From a virus, in the IMG/VR virus record IMGVR_UViG_3300031857_001003, positions 1-29,263 of that record: a stretch of DNA of 29,263 nucleotides; one strand, written 5' to 3'. Shown here piece after piece: positions 7,408 through 28,984 of this stretch; position 1 is the stretch's first letter, and the number at the start of each line of letters is the position of its first letter. The notes under the pieces are model-generated. The model ran no database searches. It was not told the DNA's origin and saw nothing but the letters and a program-made list of their open reading frames with translations. Both the position numbers and the translations under genes were made by a program.

Positions 7408-7541
7408 TTGGCAGCCTTTCTCAGCCAGGACAAGATGGCCTTGTCGGCGATGGCCTGCAGCTTAGAGCCGGTCTGCAGGCAGTAGTCGCGCAGGGCTTTG
7501 TGAGTTTCTTTGGTCACGTTGATGGTTTTCGGTTTGGTCAT
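7404..7541 (-). CDS. Ribbon-helix-helix-like protein, upstream copy
   Basis: 45 residues from ATG 7541 to TGA 7404. It begins MTKPKTINVTKETHKALRDY and continues through a helix and SKLQAIADKAILSWLRK. It aligns along its length with the 51-residue protein at 6800-6955 (strand, THxxLxDY helix, SKLQ/YKLQ turn, then the second helix). Both ends overlap neighbours by 4 bases (ATGA upstream, GTGA downstream). A dimeric DNA-binding regulator is the best guess. Confidence 0.7.
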   Translation of the reverse strand: MTKPKTINVTKETHKALRDYCLQTGSKLQAIADKAILSWLRKAAK

Positions 7542-8014
7542 TGGGTGATCTGCTTTGCGATCTCCTGGCCGAGGCCAGCGTTCGACCGTCCCAGGAGGGC
7601 CAGCCTGTGCGCCATCTTCTCGGTGACCGACTCATGGCGTTTGCGCTCGCAGTCGGAGAGTAGGTTGAGATTAGTCTTGGTGCCCAGGATCACCGAGGCC
7701 TTGAGGCTGTTCAAGGCCACCCGGTTCAGGTGCTCCATTTCGTCGGCGTTGGTGTTGGGCGGCAGGATCTGGAAGCCAGCCCCGCGGAGGCCCCGCTGGC
7801 TGAAGTTCATGCCACGCTGCCGGAGCAACACCCGGATGTTGTGCGCGGCCATCTGGAAGGCCATGGAGTTGGCCTTTTCCTCCAGGGCTGCCTCCATCTC
7901 CTCGATGGTCACGGTCAGGCCATAGGCCAGCCGGTGCTCGTTGCGGTCGATCCAGTCCTTCCAGAGCGGAAGGCGCCGGACTTCTTCTTCGTTGATCATG
8001 TCTTGTGTTTCCAT
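7538..8014 (-). CDS. Unknown helical phage protein
   Basis: 158 residues. It starts METQDMINEEEVRRLPLWKD and continues with mostly helical segments (IEEMEAALEEKANSMAFQMA, then HNIRVLLRQRG). A central NFSQRGLRGAGFQILPP loop is followed by helices rich in basic residues. I do not recognise the family. The gene follows the second pair of pentamer-array elements directly: the start codon is 5 bases past the last hairpin/U-run unit. Its expression is therefore likely to depend on read-through of that structure. Confidence 0.75.
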   Translation of the reverse strand: METQDMINEEEVRRLPLWKDWIDRNEHRLAYGLTVTIEEMEAALEEKANSMAFQMAAHNIRVLLRQRGMNFSQRGLRGAGFQILPPNTNADEMEHLNRVALNSLKASVILGTKTNLNLLSDCERKRHESVTEKMAHRLALLGRSNAGLGQEIAKQITQ

Positions 8015-8019
8015 TTGCT

Positions 8020-8112
8020 AAAAGTTGCCCGGTGTTACCGCACACCGGAAAGCGTTGTTGCCGCTCCACTCCAAGTCCGGCCTCGCCCGACCTTGCCTCG
8101 CCATGCCGCGCC
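8020..8112 (-). repeat. Pentamer-array element B1 (11 GGCNN-type units, hairpin, U-run)
   Basis: On the transcribed strand, eleven 5-nt units occupy 8112 down to 8058. The leading triplets are GGC in seven, and GGT, GAC, GGA and GGA in the others. A short linker is followed by a 7-bp stem (8029-8035 with 8042-8048) around the hexaloop GCGGTA, then GGGCAACTTTTAGC. It is the copy nearest the downstream gene. Confidence 0.8.
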
Positions 8113-8115
8113 CTG

Positions 8116-8199
8116 AAAAATTGTCCCGGATACCGCGCCGGGTCGCGTGTTGCCGAGCCCTGCCACGCCCCGCCGCGCCATGCCCTGCCGAGCCCTGCC
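8116..8199 (-). repeat. Pentamer-array element B2 (10 GGCNN units, hairpin, U-run)
   Basis: Ten perfect GGCNN units fill 8199 down to 8150, with spacers AG, TC, AG, AT, GC, GG, GT, AG, TC and AA. They are followed by linker CACGCGA, stem CCCGG/CCGGG (8138-8142 with 8125-8129) around loop CGCGGTAT, then ACAATTTTT. The array starts within about 10 bases of the stop codon of the RAMP-like gene. This is the least degenerate copy. Confidence 0.85.
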
Positions 8200-8208
8200 G
8201 TGAGAAAA

Positions 8209-8793
8209 TCAAACCACCTCGACGGTGAACCGGCCGAACTTCGGCCGCCAGTCGCCCAGGCCGATGATGGCGCCGGCCTCCCGTGTGGAGTCGATCACCT
8301 GAGCCTGGTTCACAATGCTTTCGTCGAACTCAATGGTGCACGTCAGCCACCAGCCGGTGGGCACCAGGGGCCGGATCCGAATGATCCGGGCCAGCTGCAC
8401 CTTGACGCCCTTCCGGATGGTGTAGGCCGGGTCCGCGTAGATCTGCTCCTTGCTCTGGCCGATCTTGCGATGGTGGACAACCACCTCGGGCTCCGAGACG
8501 AACACCGCGGCGGCGAAGTCCTTGCCAAGCCGGCTTTTCTTGGCGCCCTCCTGGATGCAGCGCTCGATGTTGTCGGAAGGCATGACCATGCCGCCCTCGG
8601 CCTCGGACCAGTACAGGCCGGCCTCCCATTCCAGACGGTCGCGCTCCTGATGATCGTGGATGGTCATCTTCTTGGAGCCCTTGGCGGTGATCTTCTTGAT
8701 CGCCACCGTGTATGGGTTGGTCGGATCTGCCATCAGACCGTTGTGCATGATGAGGGGCCGCAGCCCGGTGAGTTTGACTTTGATTTGCTTCAT
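8209..8793 (-). CDS. RAMP-like (Cas7/RRM-fold-like) phage protein of unknown function
   Basis: 194 residues beginning MKQIKVKLTGLRPLIMHNG. The protein has a first beta strand, a central region (LEWEAGLYWSEAEGGMVMP, then DNIERCIQEGAKKSRLGKDF), two more strands (VKVQLARIIRIRPLVPTGWW and LTCTIEFDE), and a glycine/arginine-rich end, GAIIGLGDWRPKFGRF. Proteins with this layout occur in many phages. The start strand and the GLGDxRPxxGRF end recall the RRM-fold and G-rich loop of RAMP proteins, so RNA or ssDNA binding is plausible but not shown. It is flanked on both sides by paired pentamer-array elements, the only such elements in the window. Confidence 0.8.
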   Translation of the reverse strand: MKQIKVKLTGLRPLIMHNGLMADPTNPYTVAIKKITAKGSKKMTIHDHQERDRLEWEAGLYWSEAEGGMVMPSDNIERCIQEGAKKSRLGKDFAAAVFVSEPEVVVHHRKIGQSKEQIYADPAYTIRKGVKVQLARIIRIRPLVPTGWWLTCTIEFDESIVNQAQVIDSTREAGAIIGLGDWRPKFGRFTVEVV

Positions 8794-8829
8794 GTTGTTT
8801 TGCTTTGGTTGCCTTGGTTGTTACTGACG

Positions 8830-8919
8830 AAAATGTCCGGTGATACCGCCCACCGGCAGGCGATTAGCCGAGCCGGGCCCTGCCCCGCCCCGCCGCGCCG
8901 GGCTGGGCCCTGCCCCGCC
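8830..8919 (-). repeat. Pentamer-array element A1 (11 GGCNN units, hairpin, U-run)
   Basis: Eleven units run from 8919 down to 8865; ten have GGC and one AGC. They are followed by a linker, then a 6-bp stem CCGGTG/CACCGG (8851-8856 with 8837-8842) around loop GGCGGTAT, then ACATTTTCG. It sits immediately before the leader of the RAMP-like gene, so a hairpin/U-run lies between the upstream transcript and that gene. Confidence 0.85.
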
Positions 8920-8922
8920 ACG

Positions 8923-9011
8923 AAAAATTGTCCCAGTTGCCGTACTGGGGAACGTGTAGCCTCTCCCGGCCTCGACGCGCCTGGACTCGCCGGGCCTCTG
9001 CTGGTCGGGCC
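8923..9011 (-). repeat. Pentamer-array element A2 (11 degenerate units, hairpin, U-run)
   Basis: Eleven units run from 9011 down to 8957 with the same 5-nt period. The leading triplets are GGC in six and GAC, GCA, GTC, GTC and GGA in the rest, so the first G is invariant. The stem is CCCAGT/ACTGGG (8932-8937 with 8944-8949) around ACGGCA, followed by GACAATTTTT. The stem sequence differs from the other copies but pairs perfectly. It begins right after the stop of the transglycosylase gene. Confidence 0.75.
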
Positions 9012-9019
9012 TCGTAAAA

Positions 9020-9349
9020 TCATTTGATCGCCTTCTGCACCCGGCGCCAGTAGGCCACTGTGGCCGTCTTCCGGTCCCCGGTGGGACCGCCATTCCAGAT
9101 CCGGGCCTGCTGCTCGGTGGTCTTGCCGCGGCCGTAGTGCCGCAGGTAGGCCTCGCACACAGCCCGGGCTGCCACGCGGTTGGTCATCTCGGAGTGCTTG
9201 TAGTGCGACCCGGTGATTCGGTTCACGTCGAGGACCACTGCCTTGTGGATCTGGAGGCAGCCAATGGCTCGGCCTTGGTCACCGATGGCTTGGTCGTTGT
9301 TGCTGCTCTCGACCAGCATCAGGGCTGAGATCAGGTTGGTGAGGTTCAT
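9020..9349 (-). CDS. Minimal lytic transglycosylase (SLT/lysozyme-like), candidate endolysin
   Basis: 109 residues from ATG 9349. The N-terminal half shows the SLT core: a helix ending in the catalytic-type glutamate (LMLVESSNND, Glu14) and then DQGRAIGCLQIH, equivalent to the GAxGLMQI signature. Later GSHYKHSEM and ARAVCEAYLRHYG helices match the rest of a small goose-lysozyme-type fold. It would cut peptidoglycan between MurNAc and GlcNAc. No signal peptide is visible, so it would need the holin encoded near 19.2 kb. It is about 9.7 kb away from that holin. The first pentamer-array pair starts directly after its stop. Confidence 0.8.
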   Translation of the reverse strand: MNLTNLISALMLVESSNNDQAIGDQGRAIGCLQIHKAVVLDVNRITGSHYKHSEMTNRVAARAVCEAYLRHYGRGKTTEQQARIWNGGPTGDRKTATVAYWRRVQKAIK

Positions 9350-9353
9350 GGTG

Positions 9354-9596
9354 TCAGAGTGCAGAGGTCCAGTTGTCCTGGATGAACTGGTGAATGCTAT
9401 CCATGAGGCATTCATCGTCGCCCCAGATACCGCGGCCTCGAGGCTCCGGCATATGCTGGAAGTCGATGTCGACGTCAGGGAATTGGCTCCGGATCATCAT
9501 CTCCAGGTTGCCGATGATGCGATAGACGTCGGCCTCGGTGGCGGTGCTGCCCCAGTAGGAGGGCTCGGTAGGAAGTTGGATTGTGACGATGCTCAT
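9354..9596 (-). CDS. 80-residue acidic protein, unknown
   Basis: Begins MSIVTIQLPTEPSYWGS, then a helix (EADVYRIIGNLEMMIRSQF), then an acidic end with DVDIDFQHMPEPRG and CLMDSIHQFIQDNW. Not recognised. It lies 4 bases upstream of the transglycosylase ATG and so may be coupled to lysis, by position only. The leader has the conserved hairpin block at 9621-9657 and a CA-rich stretch AGCAAACCACAGCAAAAC just before the ATG, nearly the same as that of the next gene upstream. Confidence 0.7.
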   Translation of the reverse strand: MSIVTIQLPTEPSYWGSTATEADVYRIIGNLEMMIRSQFPDVDIDFQHMPEPRGRGIWGDDECLMDSIHQFIQDNWTSAL

Positions 9597-10050: not shown

Positions 10051-12759
10051 TCAAATTCCTTTGAGATCCACCAGACTCAGGGTCAGGTACTTCTGGTCGT
10101 TGGTGGTGGCGTCGAAGTAACTGGCGATCACCTGGGTCTCCCGTTCCGAGTAAGAACGGTAGGGCTTCACCCGGGTGGCCAGGACCGCCGGGAACTCGGT
10201 GGGCTGGCCGTTCTCTGTCTGCCAGTTGCCCGAGGTGAACCCAAAGCGCCGGCACCAGGTCTGCAGGTTCTGCGGTGGGACGAACCAGTAGTCGGTGCCG
10301 AAACTGTCCTGGCTGGCAAAGCATTGGACGCCGTATCCGGTCAGGAGATCGTAGCCGGCCTGGTCGAGATACCAGGCGTCCTCGTCGAAGTCGGGCTCGT
10401 AACCGGTGCCAAAGAAGGCAGGAAGCCCCGGGGCCTTGTCCATGGTGCAGAGGCAGTCGGAGCGGGTCCACGAGTCGACGCGCCACTGCATCAGGTTCCA
10501 GAGCCAGGCGCTCTTAGGGATCTTGTGGAAGAATGGGCCGCTGCCGGGGCCGCCGTTAAAAACGTTGAATCTTGACGTGTATGGTATGTCGAACGTCTCG
10601 TCTATTTGATCCTCAAGATCAAACTTTATTGATGTAAGTGAGTCCCGGAAAACAGAGACCGTTTGCAGTGTCTGAAGAGGGACTGTCGAAGCAAAACGAG
10701 ATCCTTGCTGGTCCTTAAAAATGTCGTCGACCGTTGTCTGAAACAATCCATCCGGGCTTTCAATAAATTTCGGTGTTTTATTTGGACTTCCTAAGATCCT
10801 TACTGATGCATCAATACCGCCTGGACCTCCCCATTTGTTGACCCAGAAGTCGGCCTCGAAACCAAAGTTTGACGCATAATTAGGATCTCCATAGAAAGCT
10901 CGCATTAGCTCATTGTCGTAATTGCTAGATGAGAAACCCCAGGGGCCTCCAGGAGGAATGAAGGCAGTGTTGATAGATCCTTGATACAGCAGGGCCGAGG
11001 TTGCTGTAGATGTGCTGATCTTTGTAGGGAACAGATTGGTCCATTGACCCGTTACGGTGCTAACCTTTGAAGGCCCAATCAGAACCGTCTTGTCGCTTGA
11101 GGAAAAGTAGAAGTTCTGCCAGCCGCCCACACCGAACCCAGGATCATGACTCCTGATGTAAAGCTGGCCTGAGGTGGCGTAGGCCTCAAAGTCGATCAAG
11201 AGGTTTCCGTCGATGCCAATCGGGTTGCCGACGCTGCACGCAAGGCCCTGAGGTGTCAGCCTGAGCAGCCCGATGCGGTCCTCGGTAATGTCATGGACGT
11301 CGTCGTAATCGTTCAGGAAGCCTTCCTCAACTGCCAGTCGTCGCCGGACATCAATCACCTTGTCGAAGATGGTTGCCTCGTTGCCAGGAGACCAAAATGG
11401 TTGAAGGTTTAATCCGCTTGGGTAAATCGTTGAAATAGTCTTCGGAACCACACCGATCTCCCACATCGGCACCAGTGGATCGCTAAAGATATTGCAGTCG
11501 ACTGGGCTGATCTGAATCAAGCCGCGGCGACTGGTTAATGTGAGGCTGTTGGCATTCTGCACCACGGTGATGCCAAGGCCTTCGAGGCGCTGCACCAGGC
11601 TTCCAACACCCGGGAAGTTGACCAGCCGTTCCTCGGAGATCTCGCCGCTGGCTCCGAAATAATACCGCACCCGGGCACGTCCCCAGGTGAACACCAGGTC
11701 GCCCAGTTGCTGCCGGAAGTCCCCAGGGTCGGCATAGGTGCCTGGGTAGACCTGTCGCACGTCGTGATGAACATCCGGGTCGATCTGGGCATCCATGGTG
11801 TGCATCCAGTCGAACATGATGAACGGGTTGGCCACGTTGTTTGCCTGGGCCGACCGTTCCAAGGCCAGGAAGTCCGATGTGTTGGCGCCCTGCCAGCTCG
11901 GTGGCCCTTCAGCAAAGAAGGGCACGTCCCCCGGGAAGAACGGGAAGAACTGATAGCAGAACCCACCGTTGGGCCAGCGCGTGGCCCAGGTGCCGTCCTG
12001 GCGGCGTCGGAAGGCCCGGACGGCTCCAGGACCAACGAACTGCCTGTCGGCGCTGCCATCGGGCAACTGCAGCAGCACCTGCACGGTCGTGGTGCCGCAG
12101 TTGTGGACGCGCCAGCAGTCGTAGCGCTGGTATGTGTTCAGGATCCGGAAGTCGGTCAGGCCCTCGATGGCGATCTCGGCCACCGCCAGCCTGTGCTTGT
12201 GGATCCGCCCAGGAGGCAGTGTTGGGTCGGAAGGCCCGAGGCTGCCGCGGACGTAGGACGTGAGCCCGGATCCGGCCTGTGGATCCCAGCCGAGGTGCAC
12301 ATCGTACTCGATGCCGGCCACCTCACGGCGCAACAGCTCGTAGCTAAAGTGGATCTTGCCGACGTCGCAGGTAAACGGATCTCCCGTGGTGCTGTGGTGG
12401 TCGACGTAGACCTGGCCGCCGGCCACATCGAGGTGCTTGTTCTCCAGATTCGACAGCTCGATCCGCGCGGCCACCTGGTTGTGCTCGTCACGGTAGGTGC
12501 CGATGCCGGGAATGCTCGGGCTGGGCACGGCGCCGTTGTCCTTTAGCCTGAGGGCGGTCTCCGGGTCGTTCCGGTAGACGTACCACACACCATACGGGAA
12601 CGGCGCCGACCATTGAGCGTATGGGTGGAATCTTGATTGGGCCCACAGCGGCCCCATCCCGTTCAGGGCCAATTGGCACTTCTTATCGAATCGGCTGTAA
12701 AGGTTGTTCAGGTTTGCGGCCGTGAACATCTTATCCAGCCTGCCAAGGGCGTAGGGCAT
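10051..12759 (-). CDS. Large structural protein, probable tail-tip or adsorption protein
   Basis: 902 residues, the longest gene, at the end of the tail cluster. No enzymatic motif was recognised. The protein is rich in aromatic residues, Gly, Asp and Pro, typical of large virion baseplate or receptor-binding proteins. The N-terminal third has QVYVDHHSTTGDPFTCDVGK. A central part has FPFFPGDVPFFAEGPPSW and NPFIMFDWMHTMDAQIDPD. The C-terminal end has KPYRSYSERETQVIASYFDA. Base composition is visibly more AT-rich across about 10,555-11,060 than on either side, suggesting a swapped or fast-evolving segment. The order (tape measure, tail genes, this gene) supports a tail-tip role. Confidence 0.7.
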   Translation of the reverse strand: MPYALGRLDKMFTAANLNNLYSRFDKKCQLALNGMGPLWAQSRFHPYAQWSAPFPYGVWYVYRNDPETALRLKDNGAVPSPSIPGIGTYRDEHNQVAARIELSNLENKHLDVAGGQVYVDHHSTTGDPFTCDVGKIHFSYELLRREVAGIEYDVHLGWDPQAGSGLTSYVRGSLGPSDPTLPPGRIHKHRLAVAEIAIEGLTDFRILNTYQRYDCWRVHNCGTTTVQVLLQLPDGSADRQFVGPGAVRAFRRRQDGTWATRWPNGGFCYQFFPFFPGDVPFFAEGPPSWQGANTSDFLALERSAQANNVANPFIMFDWMHTMDAQIDPDVHHDVRQVYPGTYADPGDFRQQLGDLVFTWGRARVRYYFGASGEISEERLVNFPGVGSLVQRLEGLGITVVQNANSLTLTSRRGLIQISPVDCNIFSDPLVPMWEIGVVPKTISTIYPSGLNLQPFWSPGNEATIFDKVIDVRRRLAVEEGFLNDYDDVHDITEDRIGLLRLTPQGLACSVGNPIGIDGNLLIDFEAYATSGQLYIRSHDPGFGVGGWQNFYFSSSDKTVLIGPSKVSTVTGQWTNLFPTKISTSTATSALLYQGSINTAFIPPGGPWGFSSSNYDNELMRAFYGDPNYASNFGFEADFWVNKWGGPGGIDASVRILGSPNKTPKFIESPDGLFQTTVDDIFKDQQGSRFASTVPLQTLQTVSVFRDSLTSIKFDLEDQIDETFDIPYTSRFNVFNGGPGSGPFFHKIPKSAWLWNLMQWRVDSWTRSDCLCTMDKAPGLPAFFGTGYEPDFDEDAWYLDQAGYDLLTGYGVQCFASQDSFGTDYWFVPPQNLQTWCRRFGFTSGNWQTENGQPTEFPAVLATRVKPYRSYSERETQVIASYFDATTNDQKYLTLSLVDLKGI

Positions 12760-28364: not shown

Positions 28365-28984
28365 GGGTCGGTGTTGTGTAGGGTCTTGAGCGCCACCTCC
28401 TGCACCCACCTGGTGAGTTCGATCTCGCAGTGCTCCGGGTCGTGTGGGGCAATCCGGCCTGAGAGCTGTTTGGGCATGGCCTTCAGTAGGGATGCCACCG
28501 CCCCGTCGTGCTCCTGCATGACCCGGCGCACCCAGTCGCCGCTGACCAAACGCCGTTCCTTCTCGGCCTGGGCGATCACCTCGTCACGGGCGCTGGTCAG
28601 ATTCTTGGCTGCCGCGGCATGGATGGCAACCAGGCGCCCTGCATCGGCTCGACCGCCCCGGAGGGCATCGACAGCCAGGTCGTAGGCTGCACGCTCGATT
28701 TGCCGCTGACGCTCGTAGGCGCCCTGTGGCGAGTCGATAGCCGCGGTGGCTGTGTCGATAGGGTTCGAGGCTTCCGCGGGGCGGTAGGGGCCTTCCTGTT
28801 CGATTGTGGTGGGTTCTGGTGGTGGTGGTGTTTCTATGTGTTGCGTCGTGGACTTGGCCCGGATGTTTTTCTTGCGCCAGGCATCGGCGGCCTCGGGACT
28901 ATGCATAGGCATTCCCTTTGCAGCCAGTTGGGTGACGTAGCCGTGCGAAACACCGGCGTGCTTGGCGTATTCCCGTTGGGTCAT
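28352..28984 (-). CDS. terS: Terminase small subunit, Nu1-like
   Basis: 210 residues from ATG 28984 (ATGA overlap with the upstream gene); longer in-frame starts run through that gene. MTQREYAKHAGVSHGYVTQL is an N-terminal winged/HTH module like the Nu1-type DNA-binding domain, followed by an alanine-rich linker and a helical oligomerisation region (YERQRQIERAAYDLAVDALR, then SARDEVIAQAEKERR). Small subunits of this family bind cos and recruit TerL. It is the second gene from the right end, the place where cosB-type sites usually lie. Some phages use this fold for other HTH proteins, but the gene order is decisive. Confidence 0.85.
   Translation of the reverse strand: MTQREYAKHAGVSHGYVTQLAAKGMPMHSPEAADAWRKKNIRAKSTTQHIETPPPPEPTTIEQEGPYRPAEASNPIDTATAAIDSPQGAYERQRQIERAAYDLAVDALRGGRADAGRLVAIHAAAAKNLTSARDEVIAQAEKERRLVSGDWVRRVMQEHDGAVASLLKAMPKQLSGRIAPHDPEHCEIELTRWVQEVALKTLHNTDPWKS

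Follow-up and report, generated by a model that had tools for sequence, protein, structure and literature searches.

Organization of the locus

The window is a 29,263-nucleotide stretch of viral DNA (positions 1 to 29,263 of IMG/VR record IMGVR_UViG_3300031857_001003), and the presence of genes for a terminase and a DnaB-like helicase on the contig marks its carrier as a phage. The minus strand has four arrays of GGCNN pentanucleotide units with a strict 5-nt period; in genome order they contain 11, 11, 10, and 11 units. A hairpin follows every array, so that two array-plus-tail modules are found on each side of a gene for a 194-amino-acid protein (Table 1). An initial annotation, made from the sequence alone, had placed the four blocks correctly to the base, with the same strand and period. 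Its description of 10 to 11 units per block, most of them with the triplet GGC (exactly so in 33 of 43) and nearly all with G as the first base (42 of 43), was also borne out.

TABLE 1 Features of the array locus and of the related site in the phage's own terminase gene
Feature	Position	Strand	Description
vap1 (putative, divergent; Vipr-accessory protein)	7538..8014	-	158 aa; downstream of vipr
vrRNA 4 tail	8020..8057	-	Hairpin CCGGTGT-GCGGTA-ACACCGG + GCAACTTTT; covarying stem
vrRNA 4 guide region	8058..8112	-	11 units; NN = GC AT GA AA CG GA CG TT GT GC (AA)
vrRNA 3 tail	8116..8149	-	Hairpin CCCGG-CGCGGTAT-CCGGG + ACAATTTTT; covarying stem
vrRNA 3 guide region	8150..8199	-	10 units; NN = AG TC AG AT GC GG GT AG TC (AA)
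vipr	8209..8793	-	194 aa RAMP protein, phrog_4652
vrRNA 2 tail	8830..8864	-	Hairpin CCGGTGG-GCGGTA-TCACCGG; covarying stem
vrRNA 2 guide region	8865..8919	-	11 units; NN = GG AG CC CC GC GG GG AG CC TC (TA)
vrRNA 1 tail	8923..8956	-	Hairpin CCCAGT-ACGGCA-ACTGGG + ACAATTTTT; covarying stem
vrRNA 1 guide region	8957..9011	-	11 units; NN = CC CA GA CC GA CA GC GA CG GA (TA)
Own terminase small-subunit site	28415..28447	-	Encodes PHDPEHCEIEL; self counterpart of guide 1 target

The literature on phage pentanucleotide repeats includes a 2026 preprint describing VIPR, a system related to CRISPR (PMC13142463). It is made up of vrRNAs and two proteins, namely Vipr, a RAMP protein encoded by the phage, and the accessory Vap. 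Each vrRNA consists of 9 to 16 GGY/NN units followed by a structured tail, reads double-stranded DNA with one base skipped per dinucleotide, and represses the target (PMC13142463). The Vipr of such a system is a RAMP homologue of ∼20 kDa with a single RRM-type core. The kind of element seen here, of which the initial annotation knew no description, had therefore been described in that preprint.

The protein encoded between the second and third arrays was 30% identical in BLASTP (E = 3e-35) to the product of a gene of the Escherichia phage SUSP1 (28474-29061), with phrog_4652 common to both, and was matched by phmmer to PDB chain 36pp_D, 'SUSP1 Vipr protein' (E = 2.8e-27). Its AlphaFold model had a pLDDT of 96.5. 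The best structural matches of the model in the PDB were Csm3/Cas7-type and type VII backbone subunits, which are CRISPR RAMPs (probability, 1.00), and its top match among viral models was a 'Cas system-associated RAMP superfamily protein'. Moreover, a Vipr homologue was detected with an HMM in 79 of 115 loci that had been fetched by the array pattern alone, versus none of 126 control loci.

The gene downstream of the fourth module is, as judged from its sequence, a divergent homologue of vap1. Its product matched phrog_5926, to which the candidate SUSP1 vap1 belongs, over the full length (E = 0.0037), 5 of 11 homologues matched this family as well, and a profile-profile comparison with vap1 relatives gave a match of 96% (E = 4.1e-9). 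Most relatives with a Vipr identity of 59 to 65% also have a vap1 homologue close to vipr. The gene upstream of vrRNA 1 (9020-9415) has a lysozyme- or transglycosylase-type look, and positions 10051-12759 encode a 902-amino-acid protein; neither product had a Pfam or PHROG match.

Scaffold, guide, and tail of the vrRNAs

The four arrays scored 20.6, 20.3, 15.2, and 11.2, compared to a maximum of 9.8 in 500 local first-order simulations; the maximum of 30 simulations of the whole window (8.3) was likewise below all four. When related phages were searched for arrays, as had been suggested from the sequence, the arrays recurred, with 90 vrRNAs in 36 contigs and a nearly fixed GGY. The entropies of the five unit positions in this family were 0.30, 0.33, 0.73, 1.96, and 1.98 bits, and those of 321 arrays in other viral contigs were 0.28, 0.16, 0.37, 1.89, and 1.99 bits. 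The third base was C or T in 96 to 99% of units in the family and the other viral arrays. Family arrays had 10 to 18 units, with a mode of 11, and arrays in other phages had from 9 to more than 30. The entropies and the spread in unit number indicate that GGY is fixed, that NN is free, and that 11 is merely the commonest count. The GGC triplets are a scaffold, and the information sits in NN, which would act as a gapped guide to DNA; the two variable nucleotides, earlier taken for a spacer, carry a decodable target sequence. Array RNA did not fold consistently better than its shuffles, in line with an RNA that would be coated by protein.

The hairpin after each array has an RCGGYA loop and is followed by a T-rich stretch. 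Across 12 distinct tail stems, 86.9% of the pairs were kept, and the covariation score was 0.68 versus 0.14 for shuffled stems (0 of 500). The hairpin is thus a conserved, structured 3′ tail, with a sequence unlike that of the SUSP1 tail, and inspection by eye found no pseudoknot in it. The spacing between neighboring modules, ∼90 nt, is near the ∼100 nt of each SUSP1 vrRNA (PMC13142463). No described RNA family in Rfam was matched at the gathering score, and a blastn search of isolate phages with a model array, with the low-complexity filter on, gave no match.

Decoding of the guides

Guide 1 was first decoded in a related phage, where 21 of 22 bases matched at a skip of 1, in a sample of 2.45 Mb of loci that had been gathered for other reasons before target-based retrieval. 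This site is within the gene for the terminase small subunit (terS) and is in codon register, CCG CAT GAC CCC GAG CAC GCC GAG CGT GAA (PHDPEHAERE), against which guide 1 reads CC CA GA CC GA CA GC GA CG GA. None of 200 shuffles of its unit order reached the score of guide 1. The exact 10-unit pattern, with a 1-nt skip, was present in at least 120 viral contigs in IMG/VR. All 120 sites examined shared the codon register, with 119 encoding PHDPEHAERE and one encoding PHDPEHADRE, and 119 of the 120 target reading frames were homologous to the terminase small subunit of the window (58 to 95% identity). The sites represented 62 DNA variants that differed at wobble positions, and in every one of the 120 the skipped base was the wobble position. 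Because codon positions 1 and 2 are read and position 3 is skipped, guide 1 is insensitive to synonymous change, and 62 synonymous variants of the rival gene are covered by a single guide.

Convincing targets came from a skip of 1 and from that skip only. At eight consecutive exact units, 10 family guides had matches at skip 1, although several of these are related copies and the events are therefore not independent; the corresponding numbers at skips 0, 2, and 3 were 0, 0, and 3, the last including guide 1 on its own array, and shuffles at skip 1 gave 0 and 3 guides. Guides in L426, L022, and L030, together with one in L060 that is shifted by one unit, decoded to LERWVQ(E/D)V and ELERWVQ(E/D), and the LERWVQ(E/D) codons come right after the guide 1 site within terS. 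Decoding of 95 whole family guides in 4 Mb at skip 1 gave nothing significant except guide 1 and a probable chance match of guide 2. The exact pattern of guide 2 had one match in IMG/VR (L425), where the frame in that register is only 34 codons long; this is not a credible rival target and the match is probably due to chance. The exact patterns of guides 3 and 4 had no matches in IMG/VR, and an 8-unit core of guide 4 had seven.

Related guides of 17 to 18 units in L004, L007, L017, and L034 decoded to TGERETP over 7 to 8 units only, which is near chance level. In 35 loci, a short reading frame that contains TGERETP immediately precedes terS, and TGERETP is a possible target of these guides. 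Several off-consensus triplets (GAC, GCA, GTC, GGA, TGC, and TGT) occur in decodable guides, namely the window array at 9011-8957 and those of L060 and L426, and a GAC/GCA pair near the array start is common to guide 1, L060, and L025.

The scaffold of vrRNA 1 departs from the consensus in 5 of 11 triplets, and exact GGC triplets account for 6 of 11 units in vrRNA 1 and 7 of 11 in vrRNA 4, versus 10 of 11 in vrRNA 2 and 10 of 10 in vrRNA 3. Perturbation of GGY abolishes silencing (PMC13142463), so guide 1 could be weakened. It could even be that the locus is a decayed VIPR, with an intact Vipr and a guide 1 that no longer works. However, a second contig (L034) has the identical vrRNA 1, whose targets are still matched exactly, Vipr is 95 to 99% conserved among close relatives, and the tails are intact. 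It thus seems unlikely that the system has decayed.

Probable targeting of rival phages and alternative readings

The phage that carries the locus has a different sequence at the guided position of its own terminase. The own site encodes PHDPEHCEIE, which differs from PHDPEHAERE by two amino acids, and it matches guide 1 at 16 of 20 bases, with four mismatches. The targeted terS sequence was present in six related contigs with VIPR-type modules. It is plausible, from the one carrier with a known terminase, that the differences in its own terS spare the carrier.

The locus has these features of VIPR: a Vipr protein, GGY/NN vrRNAs, a 3′ tail, a flanking layout of two vrRNAs up and two down of vipr with a vap1 homologue downstream, a phage origin, and, for guide 1, a target read with a 1-nt skip. 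We put at roughly 95% the probability that this is a phage-borne VIPR locus with the order vrRNA1-vrRNA2-vipr-vrRNA3-vrRNA4-vap1, in which the NN dinucleotides are a gapped guide to DNA and guide 1 is aimed at terS of rivals. As VIPR had been described in a preprint a few months earlier, the locus is of a known kind rather than an unprecedented element. What it adds to VIPR is a hairpin tail unlike that of SUSP1, a packaging gene as a natural target, and, probably, self-sparing.

By analogy with the SUSP1 work (PMC13142463), the four arrays would be transcribed from the minus strand as RNAs of ∼90 nt, each coated by multiple molecules of the 21-kDa RAMP protein Vipr. The GGC bases would serve as a scaffold and the hairpin as a handle, and the NN dinucleotides would pair with double-stranded DNA as N1N2-x-N3N4-x, with binding expected to repress the target gene. 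Guide 1 would be aimed at terS of rival related phages, and the phage's own terS copy would be spared by its two amino-acid differences. The homology and fold of Vipr, the Vap1 homology, the division into scaffold and NN, the tail covariation, the decoded target, and the self mismatch were observed in this analysis; transcription, complex formation, DNA binding, and repression are extended to this locus from SUSP1 by homology (PMC13142463). On balance, we lean slightly toward a broader account, in which a branch of VIPR that has a hairpin handle of its own silences the conserved terS in warfare between close relatives, the carrier is immune because the guided codons of its own terminase encode different amino acids, and guides are reshuffled between fixed tails. 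With such reshuffling, guides and terminase codons would co-evolve.

Target details in the preprint (PMC13142463) concern two phage clades, and the present locus lends support to the gapped code of VIPR from a family of phages outside both. It also suggests that genome packaging is a target when phages are in conflict, and the natural self/non-self pair PHDPEHCEIE and PHDPEHAERE makes predictions about specificity and an arms race directly testable.

The type II VIPR of SUSP1 (PMC13142463) resembles that of the window in its homologous Vipr and Vap1, in GGY/NN vrRNAs on either side of vipr, in a tail after every array, in 1-nt skip decoding, and in a target in a competing phage. The two differ in that Vipr identity is only 30%, vrRNAs 3 and 4 lie between vipr and vap1 in the window, and the scaffold is mostly GGT in SUSP1 but GGC in the window. 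The window tail is a simple RCGGYA-loop hairpin and then a T-rich stretch, and the decoded target is a satellite for SUSP1 versus a packaging gene of close relatives for the window. Class 1 CRISPR effectors, with their Csm3/Cas7 RAMP backbone, share the fold of the backbone protein and the combination of a variable guide with a constant handle. However, the window has no recognized repeat-spacer CRISPR array or cas genes, and CRISPR pairing is contiguous whereas the code here is gapped and read two bases at a time.

The initial annotation had proposed that a ring-shaped RNA-binding protein, comparable to TRAP (TrpBP), reads the GGC triplets to control read-through; in its TRAP-like form, this would be a ring on 11 triplets with a terminator close by. 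TRAP sites likewise consist of about 11 short triplets that contain G and recur every 5 nt, arrays of 11 units are the most frequent here, and a hairpin and a T-rich stretch follow each array. The 11-fold geometry is not fixed, however, given the 10 to 18 units in the family and more than 30 elsewhere. The triplets are GGC rather than GAG/UAG, the information is in the spacers, from which a target can be decoded, and the arrays are accompanied by a different protein family, Vipr. No TrpBP (PF02081) match was found in the contig in a search in which the Bacillus subtilis control was positive. These results refute a TRAP ring in its specific form and make a TRAP-like ring highly improbable, and no evidence for control of read-through was found. 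The idea of RNA elements that are read by a protein fared better, the protein probably being phage encoded and assembling along the repeat.

It is just as improbable that the arrays are DNA elements that have spread between genes, be they iterons, protein sites, or linkers for recombination. The arrays are intergenic, and block-wise exchange of arrays between tails seems to occur in relatives, but the covariation of the tail is that of a stem in a single strand, the arrays have one orientation relative to vipr throughout the family, and the gapped code has a target. Two-layer G-quadruplexes in RNA or DNA, for which GG every 5 nt would provide G2L3 tracts, are very improbable too, as a quadruplex loop has no need of the conserved C or T at the third base and leaves Vipr, the tail, and the decoded target unexplained.

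The tail together with four units was found as a pattern in 32 viral contigs, whose modules had the same few positional tails and different arrays. Identical or near-identical arrays stand before different tails in different phages (L008, L017, and L018), which suggests that guides are exchanged at the GGCAACACG junction while the tails remain in place. The array pattern alone was found in at least 120 viral stretches and in at least 117 stretches of bacterial or archaeal genomes, the latter mostly not real arrays. GGCNN arrays with a Vipr homologue were seen in L184, L186, L209, L229, L230, and L238, which were binned as Fibrobacteres, Patescibacteria, Lokiarchaeota, Lentisphaerae, Opitutaceae, and Magnetococcales and could be prophages or mis-binned phages alike. 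A TerL search of five bacterial genomes gave a sole match, at 32% identity, in one genome. One viral contig (L162) carries two different Vipr homologues, and another (L123) has at least seven GGCNN arrays.
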